Of a stretch of 58,501 bases of DNA, positions 100 through 44,230 are shown one piece after another. The stretch spans positions 1 to 58,501 of the forward strand of contig CAKRRJ010000003.1 in the NCBI GenBank assembly GCA_934394615.1. Reading direction: 5' to 3'. The stretch is from an uncultured Lachnospiraceae bacterium (GTDB lineage Bacteria; Bacillota; Clostridia; Lachnospirales; Lachnospiraceae). The notes beneath the pieces are model-generated. The model was not told the origin of the DNA. It made no database searches and was given only the letters and a program-made list of their open reading frames with translations. The first letter of the stretch is position 1. Every line of letters starts with the position of its first letter. The translations under genes were made by a program, and so were the position numbers.

Positions 100-149
100 G
101 GAAAAAATGGATGCTGTGACGGAAGAATGAGCGGAAAAGGCTCGGGCAC

Positions 150-282
150 GTTACCGTTCACGCGTTGCGCAAACAGCAACGGATTTTGCCGATGCTTCGC
201 ATTCCAAATCGGCAAAATCTGCTACCATCACTGTATCGTACGGCATTTTCAGTTCAGAAAATGCCTACCCGTGTACAGTAAC
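150..282 (-). mobile_element. 133-bp MITE-like element, copy 1
   Basis: Read on the minus strand this is a 133-bp element beginning GTTACTGTACACGGG and ending CGCGTGAACGGTAAC, which form imperfect terminal inverted repeats. Inside are three hairpins: GGCATTTTC/GAAAATGCC, GATTTTGCCGAT/ATCGGCAAAATC and CGTTGC/GCAACG. It differs from copy 2 (9726-9858) at 4 positions. The flanks are tcgggcac (142-149) and tcaggaac (283-290), a decayed 8-bp duplication with 6 of 8 bases matching. It sits between argC and the GNAT gene. A short open frame runs through it, but it has no coding look. It is judged non-autonomous, since no transposase fits in 133 bp. Confidence 0.88.
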
Positions 283-356
283 TCAGGAACAGCAGCTACG
301 AGAAAGCAGAGGTTTCGGGAACAAAGCGAGTTCCTGACCGGGAAAGGAAGCAGCAC

Positions 357-6303: not shown

Positions 6304-7662
6304 GTGAAAACAAACACAGATTTATTTGAGAAAGCTCCAGTGCCAAAGGCCGTGGCGACAATGGCAGTCCCAACCATGATTTCCATGCTTGTGGTGGTCA
6401 TTTATAACATGGCGGATACCTTTTTTATCGGGCAGACAAAAGACCCGATGCAGGTAGCCGCGGTTTCCCTGGCAACTCCGGTATTTATGATTTTTATGGC
6501 GCTGGGCCATTTGTTTGGAATTGGCGGAAGTTCAGCGATTTCAAGAGCGCTGGGAGAACGAAGGAAAGACCGGGCCTGGCACATCAGTTCCTTCTGCTGT
6601 TATGGATTACTGGGACTTGGCATCACAGTGGCAGTGTGTTCCGTACTTGGTATGAATCAGATTCTTCACCTGATCGGCGCCAGTGAGAATACCATTGGAT
6701 TTGCAAGGCAGTATCTGACAATCATTGCGGTTGGCGCGCCGACCATTATGTTTTCAACCGCGTTTGCGAATATCCTTCGTGGAGAGGGCGCGTCAAGAGA
6801 GTCCATGATCGGAAATCTGCTGGGAACGGTTGTAAATATCATTCTGGATCCGGTTATGATTCTGGTTCTTGGGTGGGGTGTGTCCGGAGCGGCACTTGCC
6901 ACCATCATCGGAAATATCGCGGCATGCCTGTTTTACATTTCCTACTATGTGCGCGGAAAATCCATATTGTCCATTCATTTGAAAGATTTCAAAATGGGAG
7001 ATGGAATTGCGGCAGCAGTAGCGTCTATTGGTATTCCGGCTTCTTTGAATAACATTCTGATGAGTTTCGCGAACATCATTCTGAATCAGGCGCTGGTTGG
7101 CTATGGAGATACGCCGGTTGCAGCCATGGGTGTAGCGCTGAAATCCAACATGCTGGTGGTTCTGCTGCAGATTGGACTTTGTACGGGAATCCAGCCGTTA
7201 ATCGGTTACAATTACGGAGCGAAAAACAAGAAACGTCTGATGCAGGTATTCAAATTTACCGGTGTGGTATCGGTCATGATGGGCGTGCTTCTGACCCTGT
7301 TTATGATCATTGCCAGAAAGACCATGATCCAGGTTTTCATCGACGACGCAGAGGTTGTGGCATATGGTATCCGGATGGTGGTTGCGCTGCAGCTTTCCGC
7401 TCCGTTTATCGGAAGCCTGTTCCTGTGTATTAATACGATCCAGGGCATGGGTAAGGCCCTTCCTTCCCTAATCCTTACAGTCTGTCGTCAGGGACTGATT
7501 TTTATTCCGCTGATCTTTCTCTTAAATTCCATGTTCGGCCTGGATGGTGTCATTTATGCCCAGCCGACAGCGGATTATCTGTCGATTCTGGTGGGTATTG
7601 TAATTTGTGCGCATTTGTTTCGGTCTATGGAGCATCGGGAAAATGAAAATAGCTTGACCTAA
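6304..7662 (+). CDS. MATE family efflux transporter
   Basis: 452 residues with twelve hydrophobic segments and the MATE signatures ADTFFIGQ near the N-terminus and GIGGSSAISRALGERR after TM2. Members export cationic drugs or metabolites in exchange for Na+ or H+. The start is GTG with AAAGGAG about 8 nt upstream. It has its own promoter at 6239-6268. The substrate cannot be predicted. A second, distinct MATE gene lies at 11934-13325. Confidence 0.92.
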   Translation: MKTNTDLFEKAPVPKAVATMAVPTMISMLVVVIYNMADTFFIGQTKDPMQVAAVSLATPVFMIFMALGHLFGIGGSSAISRALGERRKDRAWHISSFCCYGLLGLGITVAVCSVLGMNQILHLIGASENTIGFARQYLTIIAVGAPTIMFSTAFANILRGEGASRESMIGNLLGTVVNIILDPVMILVLGWGVSGAALATIIGNIAACLFYISYYVRGKSILSIHLKDFKMGDGIAAAVASIGIPASLNNILMSFANIILNQALVGYGDTPVAAMGVALKSNMLVVLLQIGLCTGIQPLIGYNYGAKNKKRLMQVFKFTGVVSVMMGVLLTLFMIIARKTMIQVFIDDAEVVAYGIRMVVALQLSAPFIGSLFLCINTIQGMGKALPSLILTVCRQGLIFIPLIFLLNSMFGLDGVIYAQPTADYLSILVGIVICAHLFRSMEHRENENSLT

Positions 7663-8865: not shown

Positions 8866-9702
8866 ATGAGAGTATTAAAGGGCGCAGAGGTTTCTGCAAA
8901 AATAAAGGAAGAGGTGCAGGTAGCACTTGCAAAACGAAATGGAGAGGCTCCGAAACTGGCCATCATCCGGGTGGGAGAGAATCCGGATGATATGTCTTAT
9001 GAGCGCGGTGCCACCAAAAAGATGGAGAATTTTGGCCTGCGTGTACAGTCTTATGTGTACCCGGCAGAGATCACGGACGCAGAATTCAAGGCAGAGTTTA
9101 AAAAGATCAATGAGGATCCGGATGTGACCGGAATTCTGATGCTGCGTCCGCTGCCGAAGCAGATCTGTGAGAAAGATATAGAAGGCATGATCAATCCGGC
9201 GAAGGATCTGGATGGTATTTCCCCGGTCAACATCGCGAAAGTATTTGCGGGTGACAACAGCGGTTTTGCGCCGTGCACGGCGGAGGCAGTTGTTGAGGTC
9301 TTAAAGGCGGCTGAAATCCCGATGACCGGAAAACGCGTGACAATCGTGGGACGCAGCATGGTAGTCGGAAAACCGCTGTCTATGTTAATGGTAAAAGAGA
9401 ATGCGACGGTTACCATTTGCCACACAAAAACCAAAGACCTGCCGGGAACCTGCCGGAATGCGGAGATTCTGGTGGCAGCAGCGGGACGCGCGAAGATGCT
9501 GAACGCGGATCATGTGGGAGACGACGCGGTGGTGATTGATGTCGGCATCAATGTGGATGAGAACGGAAAGCTCTGCGGCGATGTGGATTACGATGCAATT
9601 CAGGAAAAAGCTCAGGCAGCGACTCCGGTACCGGGCGGTGTCGGAGCGGTGACGACGGCAGTGCTGGCAAAACATCTGGTGCAGGCAGCAGGATTGCTGT
9701 AG
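8866..9702 (+). CDS. folD: Methylene-THF dehydrogenase, FolD family, divergent at the cyclohydrolase residues
   Basis: 278 residues, normal FolD length. The NADP-binding GRSMVVGKPLSMLM, KDLDGISPVN and the C-terminal TPVPGGVGAVTTAVL are conserved. In bifunctional FolD a Tyr-x3-Lys pair and a Gln in the QLPLP loop drive the cyclohydrolase step. Here the first site reads SYERGATKK, with Tyr45 kept but Ala49 in the lysine position, and the loop reads MLRPLP without the Gln. Dehydrogenase activity can survive such changes; the hydrolysis of methenyl-THF probably falls to the gene just upstream. ACAGGGAGG precedes the ATG. A MITE-like element begins 24 nt after the stop. Confidence 0.92.
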   Translation: MRVLKGAEVSAKIKEEVQVALAKRNGEAPKLAIIRVGENPDDMSYERGATKKMENFGLRVQSYVYPAEITDAEFKAEFKKINEDPDVTGILMLRPLPKQICEKDIEGMINPAKDLDGISPVNIAKVFAGDNSGFAPCTAEAVVEVLKAAEIPMTGKRVTIVGRSMVVGKPLSMLMVKENATVTICHTKTKDLPGTCRNAEILVAAAGRAKMLNADHVGDDAVVIDVGINVDENGKLCGDVDYDAIQEKAQAATPVPGGVGAVTTAVLAKHLVQAAGLL

Positions 9703-9725
9703 GAAGAGGCAGCAGGAAGAATTTT

Positions 9726-9858
9726 GTTACTGTACACGGGTAGGCATTTTCTGAACTGAAAATGCCGTATGATACAGTGATGGCAGCAGATTTTGCCGAT
9801 TTGGAATGCAAAGCATCGGCAAAATCCGTTGCTGTTTGCGCAACGCGTGAACAGTAAC
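9726..9858 (+). mobile_element. 133-bp MITE-like element, copy 2
   Basis: Ends GTTACTGT and ACAGTAAC are perfectly complementary, and the inverted repeats extend to 15 bp with two mismatches. The flanks are agaatttt at 9718-9725 and agaatttt at 9859-9866, a perfect 8-bp target duplication. Internal hairpins are GGCATTTTC/GAAAATGCC, GATTTTGCCGAT/ATCGGCAAAATC and CGTTGC/GCAACG. It differs from copy 3 at 6 of 133 positions and from copy 1 at 4. It lies in the folD-flavoprotein gap. Confidence 0.93.
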
Positions 9859-9892
9859 AGAATTTTCGGAACGGGAAATCTGGAAAATATGG

Positions 9893-9919
9893 TTCCGGGC
9901 AGATTGCGGCTGCCCGGAA
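9893..9919 (+). other. Perfect 10-bp hairpin upstream of the flavoprotein gene
   Basis: TTCCGGGCAG and CTGCCCGGAA pair around ATTGCGG. No T-tract follows, so it is not a standard terminator. Confidence 0.5.
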
Positions 9920-9977
9920 TGCGAAATCTGTCATATCTGGAAAAACAGACAGGAAATCAGCGAAAGGGGATATTTAC

Positions 9978-10607
9978 ATGGCAAAAGTATTACTGATCAA
10001 TGGAAGCGGAAATGAGCACGGATGCACGTTCACCGCTCTGAGCGAGGCAGCAAAGGCATTGCAGGAGGAAGGCGTGGAGACTGAGATCATCCAGCTTGGA
10101 AAAGGTCCGGTCCGCGACTGTATCGGCTGCGGCGCATGCGGAAAACTGGGAAAATGTGCATTTGATGAAGATCAGGTCAATGAAGTGGCAGCGAAGGCAA
10201 AGGAAGCGGATGGTTTCATTTTCGGAAGCCCAGTCTACTACGCGCATCCGAGCGGAAGAGTGCTCTCTTTCCTGGACCGTCTGTTTTATTCCGCAGGCAG
10301 CGCGTTTGCGTACAAGCCTGGTGCGGCAGTGCTCTCCGCGAGACGAGGCGGAATGACGGCATCCTTTGATGTACTGAATAAATATTTTGGCATCAGCAAC
10401 ATGGTAACGGTCGGTTCCCAGTACTGGAATATGGTGCACGGCAACAAGCCGGAGGAAGTGCTTCAGGATCTGGAGGGACTGCAGACCATGCGCACCCTGG
10501 GCCGCAATATGGCCTGGGTGATCCGGTGTATTGAGGCAGGAAAAGCAGCCGGCATCACCGCACCGGCCGGAAGAGAGGAACGGGCAAGAACCAACTTTAT
10601 CCGATAA
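9978..10607 (+). CDS. NAD(P)H-dependent flavin oxidoreductase, flavodoxin-fold family
   Basis: 209 residues. The N-terminus VLLINGSGNEHGCTFTAL is the FMN-phosphate loop of the NADPH-dependent FMN reductase / iron-sulfur flavoprotein family, and FIFGSPVYYAHPSGRVLSFLDR contains the second FMN contact (SPVYY). A CIGCGACGKLGKC cluster (from about residue 48) resembles the cysteine motif of iron-sulfur flavoproteins, though spacing does not prove a cluster. AAAGGGGAT precedes the ATG. Its electron acceptor is unknown. The neighbouring GNAT gene follows at 50 nt. Confidence 0.85.
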   Translation: MAKVLLINGSGNEHGCTFTALSEAAKALQEEGVETEIIQLGKGPVRDCIGCGACGKLGKCAFDEDQVNEVAAKAKEADGFIFGSPVYYAHPSGRVLSFLDRLFYSAGSAFAYKPGAAVLSARRGGMTASFDVLNKYFGISNMVTVGSQYWNMVHGNKPEEVLQDLEGLQTMRTLGRNMAWVIRCIEAGKAAGITAPAGREERARTNFIR

Positions 10608-13666: not shown

Positions 13667-13684
13667 AGTGGAGCCAATAAAGTA

Positions 13685-13865
13685 GAAGCCGGTCGGGGCG
13701 GTATCCTGCGTAGCATAAATATAGGTGTGATGTGTCCGGCTCTGTCGCGACTGACGTTTGAGGGGGACGAACGATAAGTCCGTCCATCCGCAAACGGCTG
13801 TCAGCGCAGCTGTCCGAACACAACACCTATATTTTGCGCAGCGGGATACCGCCCCGATCGGCTTC
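13685..13865. repeat. Long imperfect palindrome B (181 bp)
   Basis: The arms begin GAAGCCGGTCGGGGCGGTAT (right arm reversed: one mismatch, GAAGCCGATCGGGGCGGTAT) and share ATATAGGTGT further in. The centre carries GGACGAA-type and TCCGTCC segments that can pair. It lies right after the LysR stop on the minus strand. Confidence 0.8.
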
Positions 13866-13903
13866 GGACCTTTATTAGTTTCGTCTTATAATTGCAATTT
13901 TCC

Positions 13904-42134: not shown

Positions 42135-44087
42135 ATGATTTTGGAACACATCGAAGGTCCATGGGACGTGAAAAATTTAAGCCAGGAAGAACTGAAGACC
42201 CTGGCTGCGGAAATCCGCCAGTTCCTGATCGAAAAGATCAGTGTGACCGGCGGCCATCTGGCTTCCAATCTTGGCGTTGTGGAGCTGACGATCGCATTGT
42301 ATCTCGCGTTCGACCTGCCGAAGGATAAAGTGATCTGGGATGTCGGACACCAGTCTTACACCCATAAGATCTTAAGCGGACGCCGCGAAATGTTCGATGA
42401 GCTGCGCCAGTATGGCGGCATGAGCGGTTTTCCGAAACGCAAGGAGAGTCCGTACGACTCGTTTGATACCGGACACAGCTCCACGTCCATTTCTGCGGGA
42501 CTTGGCATCGCGCAGGGGCGGGATCTGCTTGGGGAGGACTACGCGGTTATTTCCGTGATCGGAGACGGTGCCCTGACCGGCGGCATGGCGTATGAAGCGC
42601 TGAACAATGCCGCGCATCTGAAAAAAAACTTTATCATTGTCTTAAACGACAACAACATGTCCATCTCGGAAAATGTGGGAGGCATGTCGAAATACTTAAG
42701 CGGCCTGCGTTCGGGCGCGGGCTACAACGAATTAAAACGCCAGGTTTCTGAGACACTGCTCCGGATCCCGGTAGTCGGCTCCAGCCTGGTCGAAAAGATC
42801 AGCCGGACAAAAGACAGCATCAAACAGCTAGTCATTCCTGGAATGCTGTTTGAGAATATGGGTGTGACGTATCTTGGCCCGGTGGATGGACACGACATCA
42901 AAGCACTGGTCAAGACGCTGAAAGAGGCACGCCGGATGAACCATGCGGTGCTGGTGCATGTGCTCACGAAAAAGGGAAAGGGTTATGCGCCCGCGGAGAA
43001 AAATCCGTCCCGCTTCCATGGCATCGATCCGTTCGACATCGCAACCGGAAAATCCCTGAAAGAGAAGGTCTATCCGACCTACACAGATGTATTTTCCAAG
43101 GAAATCTGCCAGCTGGCGGAGACGGAAGAACGTCTGGTTGCCGTAACGGCAGCCATGCCGGATGGAACCGGTCTCAAAGCGTTCTCCAAACGCTATCCGG
43201 ACCGTTTCTTTGATGTGGGCATCGCGGAGCAGCATGCGGTAACTTCCGCGGCGGGCATGGCAGCAGCCGGATTGAAACCGGTCGTTGCGGTGTATTCCTC
43301 CTTTTTGCAGAGAGGATTTGACCAGGTGCTGCATGATGTCTGCATCCAGAACCTTCCGGTGGTCTTTGCGTTAGACCGCGCCGGACTGGTTGGAAGCGAT
43401 GGTGAGACACACCAGGGTATTTTTGATCTGTCATATTTAAGCTGCATCCCGAACATGAGCATCATGGCGCCCAAAAATCTGTGGGAGTTAAGACAGGAGC
43501 TGGAGTTCGCTGTCTGCCATTACAACGGTCCTATCGCGATCCGCTACCCGCGCGGACAGGCGTACCGTGGCTTAAAGGAGTTCGATGCCCCGGTGGAGTA
43601 CGGAAAAGGCGAGATGCTTTACGAGGGAAGCCGCATTGCCCTGCTTGCCGTCGGCAGCATGGTGAGTACAGCCGAGCATGTGCGTGAAAAACTGAAGGCA
43701 GCGGGATTTTCCTGCACCCTGGCGAACGGCCGCTTTATCAAGCCGGTGGATTATGATCTGGCAGACCGTCTGGCGAAGACACATGAGCTTCTGGTGGTTA
43801 TGGAAGAGAATGTGCTGCAGGGCGGCTACGGGCTTTCTGTGAAAGCCTATGTGCAGGAACATCATCCGGAGGTACAGGTCCTCACGATCGCGCTTCCGGA
43901 CGCATATGTGGAGCACGGCAATGTATCGGTGCTGAGGGAAGAACTCGGAATCGACAGCGACTCGATCATCCGCACCATGCGAAATGCCTGGAAACCGCTG
44001 GATGATGCCATGAACGAGGCTGATTCTGCCGGAAAGAGTTCCGGGGAAGCTCCGGTGAGCGGAAATGAAGTTACTGTACACAGGTAG
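42135..44087 (+). CDS. dxs: 1-deoxy-D-xylulose-5-phosphate synthase
   Basis: 650 residues. The thiamine-diphosphate signature GDGALTGGMAYEALNNA, the HQSYTHKIL and GHSSTSISAGLG blocks and the C-terminal transketolase domain with FALDRAGLVGSDGETHQG are intact. Dxs condenses pyruvate and glyceraldehyde 3-phosphate at the start of the non-mevalonate pathway. The last five codons and the stop are provided by the MITE-like element (44070-44202). Without the insertion, the frame would end in a TGA overlapping the next gene's ATG. The tail follows the last conserved helix, so activity should be kept. Confidence 0.96.
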   Translation: MILEHIEGPWDVKNLSQEELKTLAAEIRQFLIEKISVTGGHLASNLGVVELTIALYLAFDLPKDKVIWDVGHQSYTHKILSGRREMFDELRQYGGMSGFPKRKESPYDSFDTGHSSTSISAGLGIAQGRDLLGEDYAVISVIGDGALTGGMAYEALNNAAHLKKNFIIVLNDNNMSISENVGGMSKYLSGLRSGAGYNELKRQVSETLLRIPVVGSSLVEKISRTKDSIKQLVIPGMLFENMGVTYLGPVDGHDIKALVKTLKEARRMNHAVLVHVLTKKGKGYAPAEKNPSRFHGIDPFDIATGKSLKEKVYPTYTDVFSKEICQLAETEERLVAVTAAMPDGTGLKAFSKRYPDRFFDVGIAEQHAVTSAAGMAAAGLKPVVAVYSSFLQRGFDQVLHDVCIQNLPVVFALDRAGLVGSDGETHQGIFDLSYLSCIPNMSIMAPKNLWELRQELEFAVCHYNGPIAIRYPRGQAYRGLKEFDAPVEYGKGEMLYEGSRIALLAVGSMVSTAEHVREKLKAAGFSCTLANGRFIKPVDYDLADRLAKTHELLVVMEENVLQGGYGLSVKAYVQEHHPEVQVLTIALPDAYVEHGNVSVLREELGIDSDSIIRTMRNAWKPLDDAMNEADSAGKSSGEAPVSGNEVTVHR

Positions 44088-44202
44088 GTATTTTCTGAAC
44101 TGAAAATGCCGTGCGATACAGTGATGGCAGCAGATTTTGCCGATTTGGAATGCGAAGCATCGGCAAAATGCGTTGCTGTTTGCGCAACGCGTGAACAGTA
44201 AC
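44070..44202 (+). mobile_element. 133-bp MITE-like element, copy 3, inserted at the end of dxs
   Basis: Ends GTTACTGT and ACAGTAAC are perfect complements. The flanks gaaatgaa (44062-44069) and gaaatgaa (44203-44210) are a perfect 8-bp duplication. Six differences from copy 2; one of them (GGT for GGC in the first hairpin) keeps a G-U pair, and one extends the third hairpin to GCGTTGC/GCAACGC. Deleting the element plus one flank restores a dxs frame ending ...NEEQKEENE with a TGA that overlaps the tlyA ATG. Confidence 0.95.
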
Positions 44203-44230
44203 GAAATGAAGAACAGAAAGAGGAAAATGA

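Follow-up and report, generated by a model that had tools for sequence, protein, structure and literature searches.

The ends are usually considered the sole parts of a typical MITE that matter. The bacterial MITEs ERIC, Correia/NEMIS and RUP belong to a known class of short, folding repeats that have terminal repeats and duplicate their target and, as described, are ∼100-200 bp long, lack a transposase gene, carry terminal inverted repeats, lie mainly between genes and give highly base-paired transcripts (PMC2229807). A family of 133-bp elements, three copies of which lie in the window considered here (the whole 58,501-nucleotide stretch of contig CAKRRJ010000003.1 from an uncultured Lachnospiraceae bacterium), is similar to them in these respects. 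However, ERIC, Correia/NEMIS and RUP are described as having TA at their ends (PMC2229807), whereas the element, with ends GTTAC...GTAAC, is flanked by an 8-bp duplication without fixed sequence, in which no fixed TA is found. Repeats other than CIR are said there to form a stem by pairing of the 5′-end with the 3′-end, unlike the element, whose end-to-end pairing does not covary (PMC2229807). The CIR of Caulobacter and Brucella share with it independent arms and a linker in place of a single closing stem, but comprise two arms and no terminal repeats, whereas the element possesses three hairpins, terminal repeats and 8-bp duplications (PMC2229807). Like pneumococcal BOX, it is a modular folded repeat associated with target duplication on insertion; as described, however, the number of BOX modules varies and the terminal repeats of both BOX and RUP are hybridised together, whereas the aligned copies of the element have a fixed order of three hairpins and a left end that is unpaired in the covarying fold (PMC3049150). 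No publication describing the family was found in a search of titles, abstract openings and full text, most subscription papers being beyond its reach. Going by their descriptions, the features that separate the family from ERIC, RUP and Correia are its 8-bp duplications and the absence of covarying end-to-end pairing, and what is new relative to the known class is a strongly covarying three-hairpin fold whose end-to-end stem does not covary.

Within the window, copy 1 (150..282, minus strand), copy 2 (9726..9858, plus strand) and copy 3 (44070..44202, plus strand) are each 133 bp long; a covariance model built from 47 copies (R1) scores the first two at 155.1 and 156.1 bits, respectively, and a repeat finder independently returned the three copies as the longest repeats of the window. 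Their coordinates had been given correctly in an earlier sequence-only reading, whose claims of 4 to about 8 differences between copies, 15-bp imperfect inverted ends and 8-bp flanking repeats also hold: the aligned copies differ pairwise at 4, 6 and 6 positions, 12 or 13 of the 15 end bases agree as an inverted repeat, and the flanks match at 8/8 positions for copy 2 (agaatttt, 9718..9725 on the left and 9859..9866 on the right) and copy 3 (gaaatgaa, 44062..44069 and 44203..44210) and at 6/8 for copy 1 (gttcctga/gtgcccga; 283..290 to the left in element orientation and 142..149 to the right). With 0.47 occurrences expected, the motif GTTACTGT is present seven times in the window, and five of these lie at element ends. 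In six-frame translations of the three copies the longest frame is at most 44 residues, and Rfam gave no match in the window, copy 2 appearing only far below the gathering threshold. By Pfam, copy 1 is placed before an acetyltransferase gene followed by argJ, copy 2 has a tetrahydrofolate dehydrogenase/cyclohydrolase gene and an FMN reductase gene as its neighbours, and copy 3 has dxs and an FtsJ/S4-domain RNA methyltransferase gene. Elsewhere in the window, a long imperfect inverted repeat lies between genes at 13670-13880 (arms of at least 34 nt, spacing 113 nt), for which neither an Rfam match nor BLAST relatives among the indexed loci were found.

Evidence for mobility was sought in the flanks of the unique copies, 114 in number, that the two alignments described below contain. 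Both ends are recognisable in 96 of them, judged by the six terminal bases on each side, and the 18 others were dropped before counting. The 8-bp flanks match at six or more positions in 76 of these 96 copies, at seven or more in 67 and at all eight in 43, whereas shuffled flank partners reach six or more in 1.0% of cases; in an earlier set of near-full copies a duplication had been detected in 42/60. When repeat lengths of 4 to 12 were tried, perfect direct repeats peaked at 8, with three cases at 7 and one at 9. The absence of a duplication at 6/8 in the remaining 20/96 copies is presumably due to age. The 76 copies with duplications have listed lengths of 132-148 bp, 50 being exactly 133 bp, and exhibit a weak, asymmetric target preference (G at -11 in 37/76, A at -7 in 45/76) with no mirror image on the right side, an asymmetry which suggests that the two ends of the element are not equivalent.

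The insertion of copy 3 can be read directly from the gene that it interrupts. This copy lies inside the 3′ end of dxs (42135..44087, plus strand), the last codons of which now fall within the element, so that the final five residues and stop codon of Dxs as it stands are read from copy 3. Removal in silico of the copy and one duplication yields a dxs of 652 codons ending EQKEENE, the stop of which overlaps the start codon of the next gene. A query spanning both genes of the dxs-methyltransferase junction matched in 385/397 genomes, and R1 found no element at this junction in any of the 30 relatives fetched; counted from the last residue of Dxs in the alignment, the spacing is -48 to 177 bases in 29 of these loci (the thirtieth Dxs alignment ended early) and 89 bases in B. 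catenula. One further locus, L085, was considered as a shared dxs junction with the element and ruled out, its neighbouring genes being different. The comparison of occupied with empty sites proposed in the sequence-only reading was thus run across related genomes at one of the three window sites, that of copy 3, and all 30 were empty. With matching flanks at 76/96 copies, the rebuilt empty site in dxs and 30/30 empty orthologous loci, the 133-bp element family is mobile, and its description as a non-autonomous, MITE-like transposon with 8-bp duplications is upheld. Retrotransposition by target-primed reverse transcription was rejected, since the eight truncated copies examined in G001 keep the left end and the length of the duplication is fixed.

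A search for the 133-bp repeat in other Lachnospiraceae, which had also been recommended, detected relatives in a small number of genomes. In both Brotaphodocola catenula and Clostridium fessum (G001 and G002) BLAST gave at least 40 matches per genome, these being the best 40 of 107 and 146 first-look candidates, respectively. Over 299 Lachnospiraceae genomes a BLAST match was found in five, two of them weak, and in the carriers' genera 1/8 and 2/24 genomes had a match. R1, run with stricter filters and with at most 8 candidates scored per genome, matched in 12/397 genomes with match lengths of 116 to 148 bp. A 20-base core pattern was detected at 33 loci in genome contigs, 29 of them in B. 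catenula and C. fessum, the remaining four being in unrelated genomes and looking like chance. Genome G409 has 193 exact 12-base ends, where the reversed pattern occurs 2 times, and G002 has 92, where it occurs 0 times; the counts of ends are lower bounds as the pattern excluded one base further in.

No element was found in the plasmids searched, and the core and left-end patterns had no match in the viral collection. Five viral matches to a tandem-junction pattern look like an unrelated hairpin, and of 30 viral matches to a 15-base end pattern R1 supported none convincingly, the lowest E being 0.017 for a match at a contig end. In INPHARED, one and eight unverified faecal scaffolds matched, possibly representing bacterial DNA, and two further queries gave no match. 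Three unverified faecal scaffolds labelled ‘Bacteriophage sp.’ (MT837311, MT838276 and MT839053; L244, L249 and L250) carry element subfamilies with perfect 8-bp duplications; these copies are either true phage insertions or bacterial DNA.

Several partial and tandem forms were also observed. Insertions of 27-32 bp resembling hairpin 3 alone (see below), flanked by duplications that match at 6 to 8 of 8 bases, are present at six loci (L171:152-178, L271:1252-1278, L260:4239-4270, L266:4232-4262, L261:4283-4310 and L159:1643-1672), and may have arisen either by use of the inner terminal-repeat copy as an end or by loss of hairpins 1 and 2 between direct repeats. In C. fessum, 50-bp derivatives with nearly the same deletion occupy different sites (L020:6441-6490 and L072:769-818), each with a perfect 8-bp duplication; L027:1869-1929 and L004:5561-5639 were grouped with this observation, which hints that very short forms can move. 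Tandem arrangements, in which an element is followed by a short spacer repeating the flank and by a second, often partial, element, occur at L001:1-180, L098:1440-1630, L030:6850-7010 and L172:1020-1170. Eight partial copies in G001 (L129-L136) retain the left end and have lost most of the right half, one of them possibly retaining the last bases; among the G001 matches listed (the best 40 of 107), no copy consisting of the right half only was found away from a contig edge.

On either strand, the predicted folding of the three window copies is much more stable than that of shuffled sequence (z -5.5 to -7.8). For a plain MAFFT alignment of the 47 copies, RNAalifold predicts three tandem hairpins comprising 31 pairs, of which 15 show double-sided changes against 8.6 in shuffles; over its 46 distinct rows 98.1% of cells pair, and double-change cells number 100, where shuffles give 32 and slid versions no more than 27. 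In a wider alignment, which comprises 105 matches with 95 distinct rows, was fitted to the structure model and has a few weak or antisense matches among its rows, all 31 pairs show double changes, and the 591 double-change cells compare with 144 in shuffles and no more than 130 when slid; in both alignments related copies are not independent. Hairpins 1 and 2, both covarying, span 9743..9766 and 9789..9826 in copy 2 (plus strand), 242..265 and 182..219 in copy 1 (minus strand) and 44087..44110 and 44133..44170 in copy 3 (plus strand). In hairpin 3 (9828..9858 in copy 2, 150..180 in copy 1 and 44172..44202 in copy 3, on the same strands), the partner of the right terminal repeat is an inner copy of that repeat. 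When subfamilies were viewed by eye, a sequence like GATTTTAAATG was seen in the internal loop of hairpin 2 (GATTTGGAATG at window 9798-9808), together with a small extra hairpin that follows it in the window's group and precedes it in others.

The stem joining the two ends behaves differently from these hairpins. Folding predictions show it for copy 2 and, on the other strand, for all three copies, and it is pairable in 90.5% of cells, both ends being conserved, but its covariation is no higher than that of shuffles, 113/500 of which reach the same value. Of the proposed arrangement of three hairpins inside a closing stem, the strongly covarying hairpins therefore stand and the closing stem as a conserved structure does not: the covarying form is a free left end followed by hairpins 1 and 2 and then a right-end hairpin. 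Among close copies, 18/1798 stem places are off consensus compared with 84/2059 at other positions (three groups of close copies were large enough, representing 29 of the 47 copies), and this slower change of the stems implies either that spreading copies are constrained by the fold or that the fold is maintained in situ.

Both the covariation and the slower stem change support the earlier proposal that a folded form matters, and that this form is + strand RNA or single-stranded DNA is suggested only. A strand-symmetric stem caller applied to 24 representatives, some of which are related and some of whose stems extend past the hairpins, gave 20 G-T against 5 A-C in + strand stems. Over 26 subfamily consensuses the ratio is 26 to 7 (p 0.0013), divided into 19/5 in hairpin 3 and 7/2 elsewhere, and in hairpin 3 the G-T pairs are found at the same places in several subfamilies. 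The + strand is also the more stable RNA in 16/20 representatives (p 0.012). Among the private changes of close copies, G-T is not clearly in excess (7 vs 4, p 0.55). Folding z-scores relative to shuffles are alike on the two strands (mean -7.00 and -7.36, p 0.31), so the palindromes may have DNA-level causes.

Palindromes are prone to template-switch correction, and template switching between the arms of a quasi-palindrome could keep the DNA matched with no selection, making the covariation a mutational effect. The equal z-scores and the private changes agree with such a process, whereas the excess of G-T over A-C in + strand stems (20 vs 5 and 26 vs 7), and its recurrence at the same places of hairpin 3 in several subfamilies, argue against it, and we regard it as unlikely. 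Strong covariation might also be expected of a non-mobile host cis-regulatory or structured RNA repeat, whose copies would derive from duplicated operon leaders or other transcribed pieces, and the placement of the element lends itself to the same reading. With ORFs called by length only, 2/97 copies with enough flank lie inside an ORF, and copy ends overlap a neighbouring ORF at the left in 14 cases and at the right in 13, as copy 3 does with dxs; the genes flanking the other 95 are co-directional in 67 cases, divergent in 19 and convergent in 9, and in the 67 co-directional cases the element is oriented along the genes in 43 and opposite to them in 24 (p 0.027). A non-mobile repeat is nevertheless very hard to reconcile with precise 8-bp duplications, with a dxs interruption that leaves a sensible empty site, with 30/30 empty orthologous sites and with the patchy presence of the family (12/397 genomes; 1/8 and 2/24 in carriers' genera), and is accordingly given very little credence. 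Transcription terminators spread by recombination would explain the stable hairpins, but a terminator scan of 9600-10000 gave one site, outside copy 2, and the duplications and empty sites again speak against this explanation, which is considered extremely improbable.

The origin of the element from a recognised insertion sequence has likewise to be weighed. An 8-bp duplication corresponds to a staggered cut, as made by DDE transposases, and IS66 members make 8-bp duplications and begin GTAA; some element subfamilies begin GTAAC. IS66 genes (PF03050) are common, occurring in 105/299 genomes of the family, among them carriers such as G173, G216, G284 and G292. However, PF03050 had no match in G001 or G002, the two best-studied hosts, and the three clear IS66 ends read among 30 loci (GTAACCGTCAAATA, GTAAGTAGGAAATA and GTAAGCGTCAAATA, two weaker pairs being set aside) differ from the element after GTAA, the element end motif being found as a single match at one of the 30 loci (L118). 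Derivation from IS66 is therefore improbable, and the suggestion that the parent might be an IS66 relative is not borne out. For IS256 (PF00872, Transposase_mut), there was no match in G001, G002, G114, G409 or G216 and a match in 7/12 carriers, six of them over the cut-off; IS256 loci were covered by the general end finder only, which gave nothing convincing. PF01610 (ISL3) matched in only 2/12 carriers, neither of them a best-studied host, and PF01609 (DDE_Tnp_1, IS4-like) in 9/12. An end search at the PF01609 and PF01610 loci found, for the 27 PF01609 loci, single end-like matches in several and no pair of element ends around the gene, an unrelated IS excepted; the PF01610 loci likewise yielded no element with such ends. 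This is the case in G233, where transposase genes at L264 and L304 with element ends on both sides belong to a different IS with ends CCAATGTCATT; at L264:4281-5623 and 6716-6850 this DDE_Tnp_1 IS is seen inserted in two element copies.

When paired ends lying up to 6 kb apart and having 8-bp duplications were sought, no credible autonomous copy emerged from 243 bacterial loci (1.24 Mb, partly overlapping), so the proposed check for a full IS sharing the element ends found none in the loci searched. Five end pairs more than 200 bp apart were examined as long parents and rejected, each having weak ends or being nested in known copies, and end pairs spanning 187 and 197 bp, whose duplications are perfect, resemble longer members or composites. 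Given the absence of those families from carriers, at the scopes stated above, the autonomous parent is probably not an IS66, IS256 or ISL3 element, while draft assemblies and IS families beyond PF03050, PF00872, PF01610 and PF01609, such as IS6, IS1595, IS1 and ISAs1, leave room for an ordinary mobilising enzyme.

The element is thus very probably a member of a structured, MITE-like superfamily of Lachnospiraceae that is moved by a DDE-type transposase acting in trans with an 8-base stagger and that keeps a three-hairpin body. It is proposed that the transposase, supplied in trans, would cut and join the ends of the consensus GTTACTGTTCAC and would cut the target with an 8-base stagger, the latter generating the duplications that are observed. 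The body is a conserved string of three hairpins in which, as the covariation shows, the right end pairs with the inner terminal-repeat copy and the left end is free. The fold has most likely been kept because copies possessing it were amplified better or were better tolerated when transcribed inside operons. That the fold is itself a working part of transposition, with the + strand, either RNA or single-stranded DNA, recognised by an undescribed DDE-type transposase, is a doubtful extension of this model. If it were true, the transposase would tell a free left end from a hairpin right end, the element would be a structure-dependent one that nonetheless makes 8-bp duplications, and the mobilising enzyme would lie outside the known IS families.

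The body of the element covaries like a structured RNA over many subfamilies, while the duplications show DNA transposition, and the family thereby makes testable the old question of why bacterial MITEs fold so strongly. For its hosts, the element sits between operon genes, where it may affect transcripts, and in the genome of the window it has altered the end of Dxs. Its copies could also act as strain markers.
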